NCBI GenBank assembly: GCA_023659975.1
Contig: JAGXOI010000005.1
Span: forward strand, 1 to 33,507
From: Candidatus Aenigmarchaeota archaeon LH_S4
GTDB taxonomy: Archaea; Aenigmatarchaeota; Aenigmatarchaeia; QMZS01
DNA: 33,507 nt
Direction: 5' to 3'
The notes under the pieces were generated by a model. It did not search any database, had not been told where the DNA came from, and saw nothing but the letters and a program-made list of their open reading frames with translations. This document shows positions 229-30,810 of the stretch, in pieces. The number at the start of each line of letters is the position of its first letter. The stretch's first letter is position 1. Position numbers and translations under genes: made by a program.

Positions 229-774
229 TTATTTAAACCTAAAAGAAACAAGTTTCTCTAATTTCTCTTTTTTCTCTTCACTCAAAAAACCAATTTTCTC
301 TTTAAAAATCGTACACTTGATTTTTCCTTCAAGGTTCAAAGAAAAATAATTCCTGTTTTTATAGATCCATGCCTCTATATTTTCAAGTTCCAGAAGTTTT
401 TTTATTTGTTCTAATTGCCCTCTTTTCCCGGAAATTTTTATAATTCTGTTTTTTACTGAGATTGAACTTTTTCCCTCAAAAAATCCTTTCAAAAAATAAA
501 CTCTTTTTTCACTTTTATCCAAAATTTTTATTGGTAAATTATTTTTGTTTAAAGGCAGGTTTATTCCAAAAACTCTAAAAAAATCATTTAATTTTTTATC
601 TTTTAGGCAAACAGTAATAGTTGTACTTTTATTTATATCAGGTTTTCCAATTTCACTTAGTAATTTAAAAAAAAGAGCTGCAAGTCCTGGCCTTTTTGTT
701 TGTAATTCTACTCTATTCTTTGATTTTATTGATCCACAGGAATAGAAAAGTCCAAGTGCTTTAAAATTATTCAT
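229..774 (-). CDS. Two-repeat LAGLIDADG-like protein, probably catalytically degenerate
   Basis: Two repeats with LAGLIDADG-type context (ALGLFYSCGSIKS; FLKGFFEGKSSIS) and a C-terminal FKEKIGFLSEEKKEKLEKL signature. Confidence 0.55.
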   Translation of the reverse strand: MNNFKALGLFYSCGSIKSKNRVELQTKRPGLAALFFKLLSEIGKPDINKSTTITVCLKDKKLNDFFRVFGINLPLNKNNLPIKILDKSEKRVYFLKGFFEGKSSISVKNRIIKISGKRGQLEQIKKLLELENIEAWIYKNRNYFSLNLEGKIKCTIFKEKIGFLSEEKKEKLEKLVSFRFK

Positions 775-7668: not shown

Positions 7669-8910
7669 ATGGCATTAACTAAAGAACAGTTAGTTGGGTA
7701 TTATTCAAATGAGAAATTACAGGAAATTCTCTGGAATTTCGGGAAAAATAGGGAGTTTGTCGCAAGAAATATTGAAGGGCAGTATTTTAAAAGACCAAAT
7801 ATGCTTCTTTACCCAAAAGATGTTTTGAGGCAGGTGGAACTTGGAGCTGTTTCTTTTCACTGTTCTGTTGAGAGATGGAGAAACCCATTATTGGTAAATG
7901 AAAGAAATTATAATGAACAGAGAATTGGTTCTGATTGGGTTATTGATATTGATTCAGACAAAGGAATTGAGGAAGCAAAAATTGCTGCAAAACTTGTAAG
8001 AGATTTTCTGGATAAATATAAAGTTGGTTATTTGTTAAAGTTTTCTGGTAGAAGGGGTTTCCACTTCTGTGTTTTTTGGGAAAATTTTCCTGCAGAGATT
8101 AACTATAATAAGACAGAGAATTTATATCCAGAACTCCAAAAAATTTTGGCAAGTTTTTTAAGGGAGCAAATCAGAAACAATTTGTGGGCTGAGCTTGTAA
8201 AACATGCGGGATCAATAAAAGAATTAACAAATGGCAAAGCAATAGAGGGCATAGACCCCTTTAAATTTACTGAGGTTGAAAAAGATTGGAGTATAAGGCA
8301 TTTGTTTAGAGCTCCTTACTCCTTACACGAAAAAACCGGATTAGTTTCTATTTTAATAAAACCGGAAAACCTAGAAAATTTCAAGGTAGAAGATGCAAAA
8401 ATTGAGAAAGTAAAGTTTGAAGAAATTGAATTAAAGAGAGAAGATGCAACAAAATTAGTAGTTGACGCTTATGACTGGAGTGCAAAACAAAGAGAAAAAA
8501 CAGAATTAAAACCAAGAAAGGAAGTAGTATTATATAGGGGAAAAATCAGTCCTGAAAATTTTCCTCCATGCATTCAAAAAATTCTGAGTGGAATTCCTGA
8601 TGGTAGAAAGAGAAGCGTATTTACTTTGATAACTTTCTTGAAAAGTTGCAATTGGCCTATGGTAGAAATTGAAAAAACTGTTTTAGAATGGGGGAAGAAG
8701 GTTGGATTACAGGAAAATTATATAAAATCACAGTTAACTTGGCATAAAAAACAGAAAAAAAATATTTTATCCCCAAACTGCAAAAATGATCTATTCTATA
8801 AGGATATAGGAATATGCAAACCTTTACCCCTCTGCGAAAAAATAAAAAATCCAATTAATTTTGCAATTTTAAAAGTTTCCGGAAGAAAGAAGAAGAGGAG
8901 AAAGAAATAA
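7669..8910 (+). CDS. priS: Archaeal/eukaryotic-type DNA primase: PriS catalytic domain fused to a PriL-CTD-like Fe-S domain
   Basis: PriS motifs DWVIDIDSD and LLKFSGRRGFHFCVFW; C-terminal extension PPCIQKILSGIPDGRKRSVFTLITFLKSC...SPNCKNDLFYKDIGICKPLPLCEKIKNPINF. Confidence 0.85.
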   Translation: MALTKEQLVGYYSNEKLQEILWNFGKNREFVARNIEGQYFKRPNMLLYPKDVLRQVELGAVSFHCSVERWRNPLLVNERNYNEQRIGSDWVIDIDSDKGIEEAKIAAKLVRDFLDKYKVGYLLKFSGRRGFHFCVFWENFPAEINYNKTENLYPELQKILASFLREQIRNNLWAELVKHAGSIKELTNGKAIEGIDPFKFTEVEKDWSIRHLFRAPYSLHEKTGLVSILIKPENLENFKVEDAKIEKVKFEEIELKREDATKLVVDAYDWSAKQREKTELKPRKEVVLYRGKISPENFPPCIQKILSGIPDGRKRSVFTLITFLKSCNWPMVEIEKTVLEWGKKVGLQENYIKSQLTWHKKQKKNILSPNCKNDLFYKDIGICKPLPLCEKIKNPINFAILKVSGRKKKRRKK

Positions 8911-8912
8911 AA

Positions 8913-9116
8913 TGCGGCTGCCGGGATTTGAACCCGGGTCGCAGGCTGTTTCCAAGGTTTTATTTTTTTTTTTGGATTGAGGGTTTTTATCCTTATTAGC
9001 CAATTTCTCTGTTTGGGGTGCAGTTCTTGTTTTTTCAGAGAACAACCATTTCTAAAGGGTTGCGCCAATAAAAGCCTTGTGGGAAGCCCGAATCCTAACC
9101 ACTAGACTACAGCCGC
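8913..9116 (-). tRNA. tRNA-Gly(CCC), intron-containing (exons 9080..9116 and 8913..8947)
   Basis: Acceptor GCGGCTG/CAGCCGC+A, D-arm GTCTAGTGGTTAGGAT, anticodon stem CGGGC/GCCTG with loop TTCCCAA after splicing, T-arm CCGGGTTCAAATCCCGG. Spliced length 72 nt. Confidence 0.88.
8948..9079 (-). other. 132-nt tRNA intron (position 37/38)
   Basis: Canonical BHB: central helix TTCC/GGAA, 3-nt bulges CA^C and AC^A, outer helix CGGGC/GCCTG, intron helix AAGG(C)TTTTATT/AATAAAACCTT. Confidence 0.82.
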
Positions 9117-9142
9117 ATAAACAAATTATCTTAATTACTCTT

Positions 9143-10153
9143 ATGCTTGAGATAGATGGAAGTTATTTGGAAGGAGGAGGTCAGATTCTGAGAACATCTG
9201 TTGGTTTATCTGCTCTAACAAAAAATCCAATCCACATTTATAATATAAGAGCTAATAGGACTCCTCCTGGATTGAAAGTACAGCACCTCGCAGCAATTTC
9301 TGCTGTTGCTGAGCTTTTTGATGCAGAACTGAAAAATGCTTTTGTTGGCTCCAAAGAACTTTATTTCACTCCTAAAAAAATTTCACTAGATTTTCTGAAA
9401 ATCAAAATAAAAACTGCAGGTTCTGTTGGATTAGTTTTGCAGACAATTTTTCTTTCATCTGCAACAATAAACAAAAATTTGAAAATTGAAATAAGCGGAG
9501 GAGGAACTTTTGGAAAATGGGCTCCTTCTATTATTTATCTCCAGAAAGTTTTTTTACCTGTCCTAAATAAATTTGGATTTAAAGCAAGAGTAAAAATTCT
9601 AAAACATGGTTTTTACCCAAAGGGTGGGGCAAAAGTTGTTGCAGAAATTTTTCCTTCAAAACTAAAAGGTTTTTATATTGGAAGAAGAATAGAAAAAATT
9701 AATGGAATTTCAATTGCCTCGAAAAATTTAAGAAATGCGAAAGTTGCAGAGAGACAGGCAGAAAATGCAAAACAAATTTTAAATAAATTAAACCTTAACA
9801 CAGAAATTAAAAGCAAATATGTTTCTTCCCTCTCTATTGGAACAGGTATTGAATTATGGACAAATCAGACAATTTTTGGGGCAACTTCTCTTGGAGAATT
9901 AGGTAAGAAAGCAGAGGTCGTTGGAAAAGAAGTTGGTGAAAAATTGGTTGGGGAGATAAATTCTGGTGCAACAATTGATAACCACCTTGCAGATCAATTA
10001 ATTCCTTTTATGGCCCTAGCAGAGGGAAGTTCAGGTTACAAAGTTTCTGAATTAACAAACCATACAAAAACAAATATATGGGTTACTGAAAAATTTATTG
10101 ACAGAAAAATTAAAATTAAGAAAGTTGGTAGATTGTTTGAGGTTTTTATTTAA
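9143..10153 (+). CDS. rtcA: RNA 3'-terminal phosphate cyclase
   Basis: MLEIDGSYLEGGGQILRTSVGLSALT...IRANRTPPGLKVQHL; HLADQLIPFMALAEG. The start is trimmed from the 9077 ORF, which overlaps the tRNA. Confidence 0.94.
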   Translation: MLEIDGSYLEGGGQILRTSVGLSALTKNPIHIYNIRANRTPPGLKVQHLAAISAVAELFDAELKNAFVGSKELYFTPKKISLDFLKIKIKTAGSVGLVLQTIFLSSATINKNLKIEISGGGTFGKWAPSIIYLQKVFLPVLNKFGFKARVKILKHGFYPKGGAKVVAEIFPSKLKGFYIGRRIEKINGISIASKNLRNAKVAERQAENAKQILNKLNLNTEIKSKYVSSLSIGTGIELWTNQTIFGATSLGELGKKAEVVGKEVGEKLVGEINSGATIDNHLADQLIPFMALAEGSSGYKVSELTNHTKTNIWVTEKFIDRKIKIKKVGRLFEVFI

Positions 10154-10410: not shown

Positions 10411-10451
10411 AATAATAAGGCTTTATTATAAAATATTTGCCCCTGCCGGGA

Positions 10452-10492
10452 TTTCCAAACATCTTTTCTTTTTCTAAAAGAAAAGGGATGCC
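10452..10492 (-). other. 41-nt T-loop tRNA intron (59/60)
   Basis: Splits TTCAAA^T. Central helix TTCA/TGGA (one GU), bulges AA^G and AA^T, intron hairpin CATC..CTTTTCTTTT/AAAAAGAAAAG..GATG. Confidence 0.72.
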
Positions 10493-10513
10493 TTTGAACC
10501 CGAGTCTCTGGCT

Positions 10514-10552
10514 TTCTCTTCAATTTAAATTTTAGGTTTTCTAAAGGCTAAC
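10514..10552 (-). other. 39-nt anticodon-loop tRNA intron (37/38)
   Basis: BHB: outer CTGGC/GCCAG, central CTCT/AGAG, bulges CG^G and AA^A. Confidence 0.78.
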
Positions 10553-10568
10553 CGAGAGGCCAGTATCC

Positions 10569-10621
10569 ATAACCCTCTCCTCTTCCTTAATTTTTTTTTA
10601 TTTTCTAAAGAAAGAAGGGTT
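10569..10621 (-). other. Putative 53-nt D-loop tRNA intron; exact splice sites uncertain
   Basis: Inserted between GTCTAGTGGCCA and GGATACTGGC; internal helix AACCCT/AGGGTT. Confidence 0.6.
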
Positions 10622-10671
10622 TGGCCACTAGACTACAGGGGCATAACAAATTAATAAAAATAATCTAAATT

Positions 10672-19894: not shown

Positions 19895-21409
19895 TTACTC
19901 AATTTCAATATCTACAAAAATTGGAGCATCAATCTTTATTTCTTTTTTATTTTGGAGCAGATATTTTGAAATTTCTTTTTTCATTTTCAAATTTATCGAA
20001 GGTAAAGTATCAGCGTATTTTATTGTCAGCCTCCCCCTCTTTCCTCTTTCTATCTGATAAGCAAAATAGTTTGAAATTGCCTCCAAAAAAGAGCATACTT
20101 TTACACCTTTTCTTAAAATTTCTTCAAATCTTTTGTCGTCTGTTTTAACCCCTAAAATTTCTCCTTTGTAAACATAAATTTCATTTAGCCCCCCTGGACC
20201 AAGTAATTTTTTTCCTTCCTCTGGCTCAACCACATAAATTTTTATTTCTTTGTCATATATTTTTTTTCTTATTTTCCCAATCAAATTTCTATTTTCGATT
20301 ATTCCTTTTTCAATTATTTTTGCTAAATTCTTACCTTTTGGTTTTTTATCAATTTTTATCCTATCTGCAATCTGCTTGTCAGAAAACCTGGTATCTTTTG
20401 AATAGTATAAGTCCCTTATATCATTTATATTTTCCAAAGCCATCACAATTCTGCCAAGACCTGGACCTGAATTAAACACAGGATATTTTATTTTATAATT
20501 TGCCAGGGAAACAGGAGAATACATACCAATCTCAGAAACTTCAAGCCACCCTCCTTTTGGGTGTTTTACAAAAACCTCATAATTTGTTCCTGGAGCATAA
20601 TAAGCTGGCTGGTTTGGTTTTACTTCAAATTTCACTTTTTCAAAACCCAGTTTTTTAAAAAATTTTTCTGTCAGTTCTTTCCCGTTTTCAATTTTAAAAT
20701 CTTCATCCATAATCACCATTGAAAAATTCAGATGTGTCCTCAGATGTTTTGCATCCTCCTTCTGCTCCCTTCTATTCCTCCATACCAGAGAAAAAAGCAT
20801 TATTGGATGTTCTTTTTTATCCTGCAATTCTGAAAGTAGAGGAAACCATGCAGTTGTTGCATGAGAAATTAAAGATAAATTCGAGGCTTCTGGTTTTAAT
20901 CCAGCTAATTCTTTGAATACTTCCTTTAACAGATAGAGAGCATCTGATGTAGAGATACCCAAATCAGAAACAAGAGCTTCTGTCAAATCTTCTCCACCTT
21001 CAATTTCTCCTCTTTTATATTTCATCAAAATATCCTGAAGTTTTTTGAATTTTTTGAATTTTGGTAATCTCTTTTTAATGAGTTCTTTTTTTTCATCAGA
21101 TAGCCCAATATCCGGTCTTGGAATAGTCGCAAGGTAATATAATCTATCCAAAATTGCTCCTGCCTCAGGTCCATACTGCTTCCTAACTTCATCATCAGGT
21201 TGAATAGGATTTAAAATAACTTCATCAAAGCCCATTTCCAAAAAAACCTCCCTAACCTTTAGAATATATTTCCACAATAAGTGCTCTGAGCCAGTTTTCT
21301 TTTTTAAGGTAAACTTTCCTTTACCTTTTACTAATTCTGCTGTTTCTTTCCATTCCTTTTCCCAGTTTTTTTCAGCTTCATTTTTAATTTTTTTAGGGTT
21401 TAATAGCAT
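19895..21409 (-). CDS. sepS: O-phosphoseryl-tRNA(Cys) synthetase (SepRS)
   Basis: NPIQPDDEVRKQYGPEAGAILDRLYYLATIPRPDIGLSDEK; SLISHATTAWFPLLSEL...WRNRREQKEDAKHLRTHLNFSMVI; YYAPGTNYEVFVKHPKGGWLEVSEIGMYSPVSLANYKIKYPVFNSGPGLGRIVMAL; LLGPGGLNEIYVYKG. These are SepRS-type rather than PheS-type motifs. Confidence 0.88.
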   Translation of the reverse strand: MLLNPKKIKNEAEKNWEKEWKETAELVKGKGKFTLKKKTGSEHLLWKYILKVREVFLEMGFDEVILNPIQPDDEVRKQYGPEAGAILDRLYYLATIPRPDIGLSDEKKELIKKRLPKFKKFKKLQDILMKYKRGEIEGGEDLTEALVSDLGISTSDALYLLKEVFKELAGLKPEASNLSLISHATTAWFPLLSELQDKKEHPIMLFSLVWRNRREQKEDAKHLRTHLNFSMVIMDEDFKIENGKELTEKFFKKLGFEKVKFEVKPNQPAYYAPGTNYEVFVKHPKGGWLEVSEIGMYSPVSLANYKIKYPVFNSGPGLGRIVMALENINDIRDLYYSKDTRFSDKQIADRIKIDKKPKGKNLAKIIEKGIIENRNLIGKIRKKIYDKEIKIYVVEPEEGKKLLGPGGLNEIYVYKGEILGVKTDDKRFEEILRKGVKVCSFLEAISNYFAYQIERGKRGRLTIKYADTLPSINLKMKKEISKYLLQNKKEIKIDAPIFVDIEIE

Positions 21410-22688: not shown

Positions 22689-23906
22689 ATAAAAGTTTTG
22701 CACTTTTAATATAAACCTTCCATAGCGGTTTTAACCACTTCCCCAATATTCCCAATTTTCTCATATAATTCAATACTCCACTCAACAAACTTTCCAACAA
22801 TTCTTCCTTTTACTGCTCTACAACTTTCTCCAATAGTCCTGATTTTTTGACTTACAACTTCTGACAGGGATTTAAGTAAGCAGGAATCTCTTAGTAAGGA
22901 ATAAGTTAAGAAAACCAGCCACAGGTGTTTAACTATGGCGTCCAGTTTCCTTAACTGATATTTCCCAAATCCCAGATTCTGCTTAGAATCCCTATAAAAT
23001 GTTTCTATTGCAAATCTTTTCTTGTTCAACATAACAATTGTTTCATTACTATAATTACTGTTTGTTGTAATAGCAACAATATTTCCATTCAAAGAGTTCT
23101 TGAGTAAAACAAGTTTTACTTTTCCAATTCCTTTCATTTTTGTAGTGATTGAAGTTATCAAGTTATATCTTTCATCACTAATCTCAACATCAAACTTTCT
23201 AAAGTCTTCTAGTTGAGAGGCAAGTTTCTTTACTGAAATCCATTTTCCCTCATACTTCACCAATCTATTTAATTTGGCTCTGGATACCCAAATTTTACCT
23301 TTTAGAGCCTCTACAATCTCTTCACAGAGATACCATGCATCAAAGAGGACGACAGATGGACTAACAAACTCCAAAGCTTTCTTTATCAATTCTATACCTA
23401 TCTCAATCTTTGTTTTGAATTTCTCTGCTGTTTCTTTCTTCTGATAGAGTTCAAAATGCATTGGTGTCTGGTTCCCGTTTACATAATGAGTTGAAACAAT
23501 ATTGTGGCAAAGTATGTTCTTGTTTTGTGTGTGGTCAAACAAGTAACCAACTCCTTCAATCCTTTTTCCTGTCTTCTCAATCAAAGAGTCATCGAGTATT
23601 AGCATACCTCCATTTCTTTTTGTCAGGAATTCTTTTAACCTCAATTCATTTAGCTTGTTTTCATCCCATTTATATTTTGTTAAAAACCTGTTCAATGAAC
23701 TCTGGTTTTTACTGTTCATAAAGTCCTTGTTTATTGAGTTGATTGTCTTTTTATCTGATACAACCAAACCATGTATATATCTGACAAAGTGATTAAAACA
23801 AGGTTTGTTAAAGAGTGTTCTGAATTTTGACAAAGAAGGAATTATTGATATATCTGCTATCATAATTTGTTAAAATCATTAAAAACTAAAAAGTGCAAAA
23901 CTTTTA
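22689..23906 (-). mobile_element. 1218-bp insertion sequence (IS4/IS701-like DDE), apparently intact
   Basis: 19-bp perfect TIRs (ATAAAAGTTTTGCACTTTT / AAAAGTGCAAAACTTTTAT) flanked by AATT at 22685..22688 and 23907..23910; intact transposase inside. Confidence 0.88.
22706..23863 (-). CDS. IS4/IS701-superfamily DDE transposase
   Basis: GGMLILDDSLIEKTGKRIEGVGYLFDHT (D1), SVVLFDAWYLCEE (D2), KRFAIETFYRDSKQNLGFGKYQLR (E). Confidence 0.88.
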   Translation of the reverse strand: MIADISIIPSLSKFRTLFNKPCFNHFVRYIHGLVVSDKKTINSINKDFMNSKNQSSLNRFLTKYKWDENKLNELRLKEFLTKRNGGMLILDDSLIEKTGKRIEGVGYLFDHTQNKNILCHNIVSTHYVNGNQTPMHFELYQKKETAEKFKTKIEIGIELIKKALEFVSPSVVLFDAWYLCEEIVEALKGKIWVSRAKLNRLVKYEGKWISVKKLASQLEDFRKFDVEISDERYNLITSITTKMKGIGKVKLVLLKNSLNGNIVAITTNSNYSNETIVMLNKKRFAIETFYRDSKQNLGFGKYQLRKLDAIVKHLWLVFLTYSLLRDSCLLKSLSEVVSQKIRTIGESCRAVKGRIVGKFVEWSIELYEKIGNIGEVVKTAMEGLY

Positions 23907-26790: not shown

Positions 26791-29115
26791 TTATTTACCT
26801 TCTTCCTCATTTTCAGTTTCTCCTTCACCTTCTCCCTCCCCTCTTTTCAGTTTCTCCTTTATTTTCTTTCCCCCCCTTTTCAGTTTCTCCTTTGTTTTCT
26901 TTCCCCCCCTTTTCAGTTTCTCCTTTGTTTTCTTCCCCCTCTCAGTTTCTCCTTTAGTTTTTTTTATCTGCTCTTCTAGTAATTCTTTCTCAAGCGATTC
27001 TTTCATACTTTTTCCGCTTTTAAAAGACCAAAGCATAAATAATAGAAAGGTATTTAATGCAGAAAAAGCGGCAAGAAGGGGCCAAGAAATAGTAATCCCA
27101 GACCAACTCAGAAAAGCAGGAACGCCTGCAACTAGTAATATTAAAGTGATACCTAATTCAATTATTTTTGCAATACCTGTTTTTCCTATTTTTCCTTTTT
27201 CAGGAATAAACTTATAAAGTACAAAAACACCACCTAAAGCTGCTATTGCTAATCCATACAAACTGTGGGTATAATACAGAACTAAAATACCGACAATAAT
27301 AAACAAAACCCCCATCTTCTGCTTAAAACCAAAACCCTCGATTTCTGGAATTAAAATAAGTAGATAAATAGAACCTATGATTATTGCGGGTATTCCAATA
27401 ATCCACAGCCCTGGTAAAAGGATTAAAATAATTAGCCCAACTGCAATTGCAACGAACGGTAAAATAACCTTTGTATACTTTTCCACATTTTCTGATGGTT
27501 TTCCTTCATATACTTTTCCTCCTGCCTTTCCAAAAGCTTTTCCTGTTTTTACTCCTCCCTTTCCAAAAGCTTTTCCTGTTTTTACTCCTCCCTTTCCAAT
27601 ACCTTTTCCTGTTTTTACTACTGCTTTTTTACTTACTCCCACTGCTTTTCCAAGACCTCTTCTTATTTTAGAGAATTTTAACAAAGATTCCAATCCTTTC
27701 CTAAACTTTTCCAACTCTTGCAAGGCTTTATCATATTCATCATTTTCTATCAAATCCTGAATTTTATACTCAAATTTATCTAAAGATGAATAACCAAGTT
27801 CTACTATCAAATTGTTTATTTGTTCATCACCCTTTTTTAGCTTACTCTTAACTTCTTTAATTAAATCATCACACTTACATCTAAGTTTGTAAACTTTTAT
27901 ATCCGTATCTTCATCAGAAGGAGGTTGTCCATCCCCCCCTGCTCCTCCAGCTCCTTCCCCTCCTGCTCCTCCAGAACCTTCTGTGTAAAACCAGTTTTTC
28001 CAGTTTTTTATTCTCTGCCTTAAATTACTTCTACTTTCCTTATCTTTACCAGAAGATTCCGATGGCTTTGACAAATCTCCATTAGAGGGAGGTTGTCTAG
28101 TCCCCCCTCCTCCTCCAGCTTTTTCTTTTCCTTCTTTTCCAAAATTTTCTCTTACTGATTCCAATCTTTCTTTAAGATTAACCTCTTCATCTTCAGACAC
28201 AGAAGCCCCTCCAAGTTCATTAACTTTTTCATCCACAAACCTACTTGCACATTCTTTAAAATCCTTATATTCTTTTTCTAATTCTTCATAAAAATTGTAA
28301 TCTTCTCTCAAAGCTTTAGATCCTTTCTCAAAATATCTATCAATTACATACCCAACAAATTTATCTATATTATCCCGCTTAGTAAATTCCATCTCTTTAT
28401 CAATATCTATTACTTTCCTTTCACTTTTAAAAGGGCCCTCAGTTAGAAGAATAAGCCCAAATTCGCCTTTATTCTTTATGACAGGGAGAGTACTGAATTG
28501 TATTACCCTTTGTCTCCGGGGCAGAAGATCTAAAAGTGCATATACTATCTTAATTAAAGTGTCAGTGTCTCTGCCTCTACATAATAGTTCTAACTTTTCT
28601 TCTTTAAGAAGCGCAGCGAGAACATTTTTTAAAGTAGTCCTAAATTTTATATAGTTCTCTATCTTGTCTTCTACTTCATATTTCCAACTTTCATCTATTT
28701 TAATTTGAATAACATCAGCTTTTCCTTTTGATTTTATATCTCTAACAAACTTCTCATACTTTTCTACATCTTTAATGAAATGTTTCTTGAGTAATCTTGG
28801 GTTCGCACCTATTTTTACATAATCATCCAAATTAATAACTATATGATGACTATATACACCTTCTCTATCAATTTTATCTCTTGTTCCACCTTTAAATAAT
28901 GATAATACTACCTTTTCCCTGCCATTTTTTATTAGCTTTGTCAAGCCATATGCTTCTCCAACTTTTGAAACCTTTGAAAAATCAACAAACTCAAATTTCC
29001 TTCCATAATCTCTGGCAATTTCTCTATTCCATCCCTCCTCGCTCCATGTTTTTATACCATAACCCAGTTCATCTGGGTGAATTCCATAGGTGTAATGGTC
29101 AGCTTTTACTAACAT
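26791..29115 (-). CDS. GAP1-like (GTPase-associated protein 1-like) N-terminal region fused to coiled-coil, 11-aa repeats and multi-TM region
   Basis: YTYGIHPDELGYGIKTWS...VLSLFKGGTRDKIDREGVYSHHIVIN and ALLDLLPRRQRVIQFSTLP resemble the GAP1-N/M pattern; about 6 TM helices; basic C-terminal repeats. Confidence 0.55.
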   Translation of the reverse strand: MLVKADHYTYGIHPDELGYGIKTWSEEGWNREIARDYGRKFEFVDFSKVSKVGEAYGLTKLIKNGREKVVLSLFKGGTRDKIDREGVYSHHIVINLDDYVKIGANPRLLKKHFIKDVEKYEKFVRDIKSKGKADVIQIKIDESWKYEVEDKIENYIKFRTTLKNVLAALLKEEKLELLCRGRDTDTLIKIVYALLDLLPRRQRVIQFSTLPVIKNKGEFGLILLTEGPFKSERKVIDIDKEMEFTKRDNIDKFVGYVIDRYFEKGSKALREDYNFYEELEKEYKDFKECASRFVDEKVNELGGASVSEDEEVNLKERLESVRENFGKEGKEKAGGGGGTRQPPSNGDLSKPSESSGKDKESRSNLRQRIKNWKNWFYTEGSGGAGGEGAGGAGGDGQPPSDEDTDIKVYKLRCKCDDLIKEVKSKLKKGDEQINNLIVELGYSSLDKFEYKIQDLIENDEYDKALQELEKFRKGLESLLKFSKIRRGLGKAVGVSKKAVVKTGKGIGKGGVKTGKAFGKGGVKTGKAFGKAGGKVYEGKPSENVEKYTKVILPFVAIAVGLIILILLPGLWIIGIPAIIIGSIYLLILIPEIEGFGFKQKMGVLFIIVGILVLYYTHSLYGLAIAALGGVFVLYKFIPEKGKIGKTGIAKIIELGITLILLVAGVPAFLSWSGITISWPLLAAFSALNTFLLFMLWSFKSGKSMKESLEKELLEEQIKKTKGETERGKKTKEKLKRGGKKTKEKLKRGGKKIKEKLKRGEGEGEGETENEEEGK
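26843..26955 (-). repeat. 33-bp coding tandem repeat (KRGGKKTKEKL)n
   Basis: ccccccttttcagtttctcctttgttttctttc unit repeated about 3 times; 11-aa period. Confidence 0.8.
27524..27625 (-). repeat. 33-bp coding tandem repeat (GVKTGKAFGKG)n
   Basis: ctttccaaaagcttttcctgtttttactcctcc unit repeated about 3 times. Confidence 0.8.
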
Positions 29116-29594
29116 TTTAAATCTTCATCCCAACTCCCCCATCTCGTTATTTCAGTGGTTACCGTCTCATAAATTTCTCTAATTTTTTCACCGCTGATTT
29201 CATAAAGTCCAATCTCGTACTCTTTCGGCCTCCTTAACCGTCCTCCTTCTGCTCTTAACCCTATAGCTACCTTGTAAAATACGGCAGGAGAGGTTGCAGG
29301 TGGCCACTCACCAGCATTAAGATGTAGCGCAACTTCTTTGAAATGATTCGCTGAAGTTGTATCGATACTTCTCGTTGTAAAATCAAGCTTACTATAACCA
29401 CTCCTTATAAGCCAAGAAAGGAAATTACTTTCTTCTACTCTTTCCTTGGAAGGCAGGATTTCTCTATCACTTACTATATCTACTCCCTGTTTAGCATTTG
29501 CATGTATGGTCGCAGCTTGCTCTAATAGGTATCCCACAACAGTTTTACCAGCACTCATTCCACCAATAAAAGCTACATTCATAATAACCTTCAC
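29109..29594 (-). CDS. Small P-loop GTPase-like protein (possible DO-GTPase/TRAFAC-like, short)
   Basis: Walker A NVAFIGGMSAGKTVVGYLL; GEWPPATSPAVFYKVAIGL...YEIGLYEISGEKIREIYE resembles the T...(D)xxGE arrangement. GTG start at 29594 or ATG at 29582. Ends 7 bp into the GAP1-like gene. Confidence 0.6.
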   Translation of the reverse strand: MKVIMNVAFIGGMSAGKTVVGYLLEQAATIHANAKQGVDIVSDREILPSKERVEESNFLSWLIRSGYSKLDFTTRSIDTTSANHFKEVALHLNAGEWPPATSPAVFYKVAIGLRAEGGRLRRPKEYEIGLYEISGEKIREIYETVTTEITRWGSWDEDLKC

Positions 29595-30810
29595 CTATTA
29601 TTATATTAGTAAACAAATCTTTTATGTTCTTTCCTGATTCTCCAAACCATTTAGAAGATATATCTGAAATAGGGACTTCGAAAGAAGTGGCGTCACACTC
29701 TACAGCCGCTACCTTTGCCAGTAAGCTCTTTCCACATCCTGGAGGACCAAAAAGCAATACTCCCTTCGAGGGTTCAATCCCGTATCTTTCCAAATATTCT
29801 GGATACTTCAATGGCATAGTAATTACATCTCTTATTCTTTCCTTTGTCTCTTTCAATCCCCCTATATCCTCCCACTTTACATTGGGCTTCTCGACAATTA
29901 TTAATTCCTTCTTCCTTTCGCCCTCCTCTTGATTTTTTTCCCTAACCTTTTCAGTTAAATCAGGTAAGAATTGTTTAAATGCCTTCTCAAGAGCATTACA
30001 TCTTGTAGTAATATCCTCAAGCCTTTCTTTTAATTTGTCAAATTCAGTATTTGTCTCTTTAATCATGTTATCTCTTTTCTTAATTGATGAAGCAAATATA
30101 TTTTTAAGATTCTCTATACTTTCCTTAACTTTCTCGTGCTCTTTCTGTATACTCTCAAACCGTTTATCCAAACTTTCAAACTTTTCCTCAACTACTCCTT
30201 CGTAAATTCTTCTCCACTCTTCTATTCTTTCCCTTAAATTACTTCCACCCCCCTTATCTCCTTTAGAAGAAGGTTGTCCAGTTTTCTTTTTTCTTCTTAT
30301 TATTCCAAAAATTCCAAGAGCTTTTTTTGTTTTTCCTACTTTTTCGTAAATTCCTTTCCACTTTTCTCTTTTTTTCTCTAAATCACTTCCACCTCTTTTA
30401 TCTTTACCAGGATGTTGTCCAGTCCCCTCTTCTACTTCTGCTTCAGTACCTTCTCTTTCTGCTTTTACAAAATTTTCTCTTACTGATTCTGGTCTTTCTT
30501 TAAGATTAACCTCTTCATCTTCAGACACAGAAGGAGGTTCCGATGGCTTTGACAAAGATTCCAATCCTTCCTTAAAGTTTTTCAACTTTTGCAAGGCTTC
30601 ATTATATTTTCCCTCTTCTTCCAAACGCTGAATTTCATCCTCAAATTTATCAAAAGATTCATAACCAAATTCTCCTATCAATTCCTTTAGTCGTTTATCA
30701 TCTTCTAGCCTTTCCTTACTTTTTCTAATCGAATAATGACAATCTAGTATAAGTCTGTTAATTCTATTTTTCATCTTTATTTCTTCTTTGTTCTGGTTTT
30801 CTTCAGGCAA
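29545..30810 (-). CDS. Coiled-coil protein with a C-terminally truncated AAA+ (CDC48/PAN-type) domain
   Basis: VKWEDIGGLKETKERIRDVITMPLKYPEYLERYGIEPSKGVLLFGPPGCGKSLLAKVAA...SSKWFGESGKNIKDLF, then an unrelated tail and stop. Walker B, sensors and the lid are absent. Confidence 0.75.
   Translation of the reverse strand: MPEENQNKEEIKMKNRINRLILDCHYSIRKSKERLEDDKRLKELIGEFGYESFDKFEDEIQRLEEEGKYNEALQKLKNFKEGLESLSKPSEPPSVSEDEEVNLKERPESVRENFVKAEREGTEAEVEEGTGQHPGKDKRGGSDLEKKREKWKGIYEKVGKTKKALGIFGIIRRKKKTGQPSSKGDKGGGSNLRERIEEWRRIYEGVVEEKFESLDKRFESIQKEHEKVKESIENLKNIFASSIKKRDNMIKETNTEFDKLKERLEDITTRCNALEKAFKQFLPDLTEKVREKNQEEGERKKELIIVEKPNVKWEDIGGLKETKERIRDVITMPLKYPEYLERYGIEPSKGVLLFGPPGCGKSLLAKVAAVECDATSFEVPISDISSKWFGESGKNIKDLFTNIIIGEGYYECSFYWWNECW
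29931..30201 (-). repeat. 271-bp segmental duplication, copy 1
   Basis: Gapless high similarity to 31436..31706; encodes EGVVEEKFESLDKRFESIQKEHEKVKESIENLKNIFASSIKKRD...PDLTEKVREKN. Confidence 0.92.

Follow-up and report, generated by a model that had tools for sequence, protein, structure and literature searches.

tRNA-Glu locus and neighboring genes

The stretch of DNA analyzed here (the window) comprises positions 1 to 33,507 of contig JAGXOI010000005.1 from Candidatus Aenigmarchaeota archaeon LH_S4, a tiny uncultured member of the Aenigmatarchaeota. It contains a tRNA-Glu(CTC) gene that extends over 205 nt of the minus strand, with G1 at 10642 and A73 at 10438, and is divided into four exons by three introns (Table 1). 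A first-pass annotation of the sequence had proposed exactly this span, and all parts of the cloverleaf that it reported were found, on the minus strand. The insertion sites 21/22, 37/38 and 59/60 were also correctly placed, as were the sizes of the 39- and 41-nt inserts, while the D-loop insert is 52 nt in length and not 53. The gene adjoins rtcA and is present in the rtcA loci L019 and L020 as well.

With respect to the remaining genes of the window, the primase ORF matched both the small and the large DNA primase subunits. The match of the O-phosphoserine--tRNA ligase (SepRS) suggests, from its sequence, tRNA-dependent cysteine synthesis in LH_S4. In the AAA ATPase ORF the family match ended about 50 residues into the AAA domain and was followed by an overlapping ORF, so that a frameshift or a remnant is possible.

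Table 1. Coordinates of the features identified in the window.
Feature	Position	Strand	Description	Evidence
LAGLIDADG ORF	229..774	-	Small ORF at contig end	LAGLIDADG-like domain
Primase	7669..8910	+	Single 413-aa ORF, fused primase	Small and large subunit matches
rtcA	9077..10153	+	RNA 3'-terminal phosphate cyclase	Pfam PF01137, E 1.3e-74
Exon 4	10438..10451	-	Positions 60-73, TCCCGGCAGGGGCA, discriminator A73	
T-loop intron	10452..10492	-	41 nt, site 59/60	Nearly strict BHB
Exon 3	10493..10513	-	Positions 38-59, AGCCAGAGACTCGGGTTCAAA	
Anticodon-loop intron	10514..10552	-	39 nt, site 37/38	Strict BHB
Exon 2	10553..10568	-	Positions 22-37, GGATACTGGCCTCTCG, anticodon CTC	
D-loop intron	10569..10620	-	52 nt, site 21/22	Relaxed BHB
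Exon 1	10621..10642	-	Positions 1-21, GCCCCTGTAGTCTAGTGGCCAA	Alignment to intronless tRNA-Glu(CTC) L057 and orthologs
SepRS	19895..21409	-	O-phosphoserine--tRNA ligase	TIGR00470, 381.7 bits (barely over the 380.65 cut-off)
Transposase	22706..23863	-	IS701 family	
AAA ATPase ORF	29109..30810	-	Possible frameshift or remnant	Partial family match

The unspliced gene gave no call by ARAGORN and no match in Rfam. When the exons were joined, the 73-nt product was identified by ARAGORN as tRNA-Glu(CTC), and it would present the cloverleaf, the CTC anticodon and the conserved positions of a functional tRNA. An intron-tolerant alignment to an intronless tRNA-Glu of a class member recovered the three inserts with a score of 65, the maximum for shuffled DNA being -9. 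No second tRNA-Glu(CTC) was found in the assembly; given its completeness of 72%, it may have failed to capture an uninterrupted copy.

Splice-site geometry

A BHB was defined as a 4-bp helix between two 3-nt bulges, each cut after its second nucleotide, with outer and inner flanking helices. The 37/38 intron has this structure, with the central helix CTCT (10558-10555)/AGAG (10519-10516), bulges CG↓G and AA↓A (arrows indicate the cuts), an outer helix of 5 bp and an inner helix of 4 bp. The archaeal motif was likewise found at the 59/60 intron, where TTCA (10498-10495) and TGGA (10457-10454) pair with one G-U between the bulges AA↓G and AA↓T, and the T stem provides a 5-bp outer helix; it was classed as relaxed (nearly strict) because the inner helix is offset by one nucleotide. 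Both motifs had been described in the first-pass annotation. Junctions from 57/58 to 59/60 would yield an identical product in the T loop, an ambiguity that was ruled out by hand, given that a BHB is formed only at 59/60.

The D-loop splice sites, previously left open, were assigned as GGCCAA↓ACCC...TTAT↓GGAT. The central helix of this intron is GGCC (10626-10623)/GGTT (10574-10571), flanked by bulges AA↓A and AT↓G, and its outer helix is weak, almost absent, so that the motif is relaxed only. In the same register, four of four pairs were formed in all ten D introns compared within this family (nine from tRNA-Glu and one from tRNA-Gln), with helix letters varying among GGCC/GGTT, GGTT/GACC, GGTC/GACT, GGTT/AATC and GGCT/GGTT. 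The central helices are fully paired (4/4) at all three sites of the gene, and the chance of such pairing at a fixed register, estimated from shuffled introns, was 0.005 (D), 0.007 (anticodon) and 0.02 (T). In the minimum-energy folds of RNAfold the bulges were partly closed or shifted; as these folds do not prove BHB conformers, support for the registers comes from geometry and from orthologs. The recognition of relaxed motifs that had been deduced for this gene is clearly needed by the D-loop intron only, the 37/38 motif being strict and that at 59/60 nearly so.

Orthologs with and without introns

The orthologs of the gene may be read as natural splicing controls, each one that is short of introns matching the predicted spliced sequence. 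In the nearest sister (L019 from LH_S6, and L066), introns interrupt the D and anticodon loops but not the T loop, which reads GGGTTCAAATCCC, identical to the predicted junction. The anticodon-loop intron is absent from the orthologs of G010 (CTCTCGAGCC), G001 and G004, where CTCTCGA is uninterrupted, and only the D intron is present in that of G004. None of the three was found in G013, which belongs to another family (CCCGGTCAAGGAT). Three introns are also present in the orthologs of G005, G007 and G002, with the T intron of the latter at 54/55. Thus, the claim of three introns in one tRNA is backed by both their structure and their presence or absence in orthologs. In addition, the T-stem pair 50-64 shows a compensatory change between two sisters, from T-A in the sister to C-G in the LH_S4 gene, as would be expected if the T stem still functions around the insert.

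Interruption of tRNA genes across the genus

Nine congeners yielded 109 distinct tRNA genes, of which 104 were interrupted. By automatic call, 59 genes had one insert, 37 had two and 8 had three; the total, about 157, is approximate, as some inserts near tRNA 3' ends (e.g., L116 and L145), and probably a few of the three-insert calls, look like alignment artefacts. The genes surveyed were Rfam hits or matches to a Glu pattern, which should favor those with few introns. All 11 tRNA genes recovered from the LH_S4 genome were interrupted, and its tRNA-Lys also has three introns. The inserts were concentrated in three loops (D, anticodon and T), and the 3-4-3 geometry, flanked by one or more helices, was found in 54, 67 and 59% of the introns there, respectively, vs. 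3-6% of shuffled introns. Strict BHBs were a minority (0% in the D, 20% in the anticodon and 8% in the T loop) and most introns are relaxed.

Similarity between introns of different tRNAs was detected in 90 pairs at E ≤ 1e-6 and in none of the reversed-sequence control; 44 of these pairs joined different isotypes and 19 different site classes. The pattern is similar to the intron transposition reported for Thermoproteales. The long introns of L065, L079, L061/L020, L217, L122 and L151 have recurring modules in common, namely GCACCCCAAA or GACACCCCAAA preceded by a hairpin, and GAGCC...GGCTCGAGCCAAAAA. Judging from their sequences, they appear to be copies of a small number of structured elements, none with an Rfam match; comparison of the window and of the long introns with Rfam yielded no other RNAs. 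In another family, the tRNA-Glu(TTC) of G017 (L171), wrongly labeled Ala by ARAGORN, carries an insert of 22 nt in its D loop, close to 15/16.

Splicing enzymes

The LH_S4 genome has one PF01974 endonuclease gene (EndA, 221 aa, L001:1135-1797), and a gene for RtcB, the presumed exon ligase, is located in the same assembly on a contig other than that of tRNA-Glu. Exactly one PF01974 gene was found in 10 of the 11 genomes of the family, including one that is 96% complete, with no such gene detected in the remaining genome. No beta subunit was found in the family genomes, as a beta probe at E ≤ 10 matched only the single EndA gene. The best PDB match of EndA, by both sequence and fold, was the alpha4 enzyme of M. 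jannaschii (1A79). The catalytic Y151 and H167 and the aligned Lys are kept, together with an acidic L10-like segment (DEEGD). With one gene, these residues and no detected partner, EndA is predicted to be a Methanocaldococcus-like alpha subunit forming an alpha4 homotetramer. The heteromeric or epsilon-type endonuclease that the first-pass annotation expected was not found: the genus has a single alpha-type gene with no insertion vs. 2cv8 at the site of the crenarchaeal CSL and the ARMAN ASL, and no beta or epsilon gene.

Ahead of the catalytic His, EndA has a basic loop that exceeds that of M. jannaschii by six residues and recurs throughout the class and, at equal length, in N. equitans. 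A relation of this loop with intron richness was considered and ruled out, the loop being class-wide. EndA also has a Lys-rich N-terminal extension, predicted to be disordered in the LH_S4 protein, which was present in all family members examined; most other families lack it or have a short version. The architecture of EndA is diverse within the class (G013, G026, G020, G015, G022, G028 and G019), comprising alpha only, tandem alpha and beta, fused and ARMAN-like epsilon forms, the last alone or beside an alpha gene. G017 has one alpha-type EndA gene.

Interpretation

We consider it very likely that 10642..10438 of the minus strand is a probably functional tRNA-Glu(CTC) gene whose three BHB introns are cut by the endonuclease and whose exons are joined by RtcB. 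In the proposed pathway, the transcript would fold so that each intron is bounded by a BHB (a strict one at 37/38, a nearly strict one at 59/60 and a relaxed one at 21/22), the splicing endonuclease would cut inside the bulges, and RtcB would join the exons into the 73-nt tRNA. The single alpha-type EndA, as a predicted homotetramer, would cut all three sites, its assignment to the D intron being uncertain because alpha4 enzymes are narrow by published rules.

It might be argued that the locus is a tRNA pseudogene in decay that contains insertions, and that an intact tRNA-Glu(CTC) lies in the portion absent from the assembly, given the completeness of the assembly and that standard finders are blind to the gene. 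This is very improbable, since the exons are intact, compensatory pairs occur in the D BHB and the T stem, and the interrupted orthologs of congeners carry other inserts, placed identically in the D and anticodon loops and identically or close by in the T loop, within a genus where nearly all recovered tRNA genes are interrupted. If the introns are real, the D-loop boundary could still be a few nucleotides off 21/22 (e.g., with exon 2 as ATGGAT), resulting in a different D loop. Spliced at 21/22, the junction would read GGCCAAGGAT, which preserves A21 and the D-loop lengths of the intronless L057 and of an Asp tRNA, and a single register accounts for the full pairing in every D intron compared. 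A shifted boundary is thus improbable, although D-loop length is variable and RNAfold gives a near-continuous helix over the D junction.

With regard to the enzyme of the three-intron tRNA-Glu gene, reviews state that relaxed introns are efficiently removed only by (alpha-beta)2 and epsilon2 endonucleases, alpha4 being narrow, and a CSL or ASL insertion with RNA-contacting Lys is held responsible for broad specificity. The genus looks like an exception to this rule, or it hides a partner. A partner of the alpha-type EndA that gives broad specificity, be it an undetected, divergent subunit of the beta or epsilon-like kind or an enzyme of the host, would agree with the published rule, with the frequent host dependence of DPANN archaea and with the tandem alpha/beta or epsilon genes of other class members; we regard it as rather unlikely in view of the single gene in nearly all family genomes, among them the 96% complete one. 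Tentatively, and with somewhat less than even confidence, we propose that, throughout the genus, relaxed-BHB introns of all three loops (D, anticodon and T) are removed by a single-gene alpha4 EndA lacking CSL and ASL. If this is true, some other feature would provide broad specificity, for example the basic Tyr-His loop or the Lys-rich tail at the N terminus, and the link that has been published between EndA architecture and intron positions would lack generality.

Comparison with known systems

Archaeal tRNAs with three introns, tRNA-Glu included, and near-universal interruption in Asgard archaea are already published. No description of heavily interrupted tRNA genes in Aenigmatarchaeota was found in the literature searched, and these archaea now join the lineages that have them, which explains why tRNA counts from such genomes run too low. 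The genus offers a direct test of the rule by which relaxed BHB introns are left to (alpha-beta)2 and epsilon2 endonucleases alone. Its close relatives with or without individual introns make recent gain and loss accessible to study.

The tRNA-Glu(UUC) of Pyrobaculum calidifontis, a member of Thermoproteales, has three introns (PMC4390854, PMC8450103). The likeness to this order extends to up to three introns per tRNA, BHB and relaxed BHB motifs, non-canonical positions and similar introns in different tRNAs, whereas its EndA is (alpha-beta)2 with CSL and here one alpha-type gene without CSL was found in a DPANN lineage. The rarity attributed to triple introns in the first-pass annotation holds for most archaea, but in the genus studied here interruption is the rule, and in the Asgard Atabeyarchaeia and Freyarchaeia 92-95% of tRNA genes are interrupted, more than half of them with multiple introns, often non-canonical (PMC11291895); these Asgard archaea are alike in the level of interruption and distant in lineage. 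ARMAN-1/-2 and Nanoarchaeum equitans, also tiny DPANN archaea with non-canonical tRNA introns, have epsilon2 and (alpha-beta)2 EndA (PMC4033280, PMC12397907). The N. equitans alpha subunit has a long Tyr-to-His loop too, whereas here there is no beta subunit and no ASL, and split tRNAs were not noticed. The M. jannaschii alpha4 enzyme resembles the EndA of LH_S4 in its single gene, acidic L10-like segment, sequence and fold; it is classed as narrow, whereas the LH_S4 protein has in addition the longer basic loop and the Lys-rich N-terminal tail.
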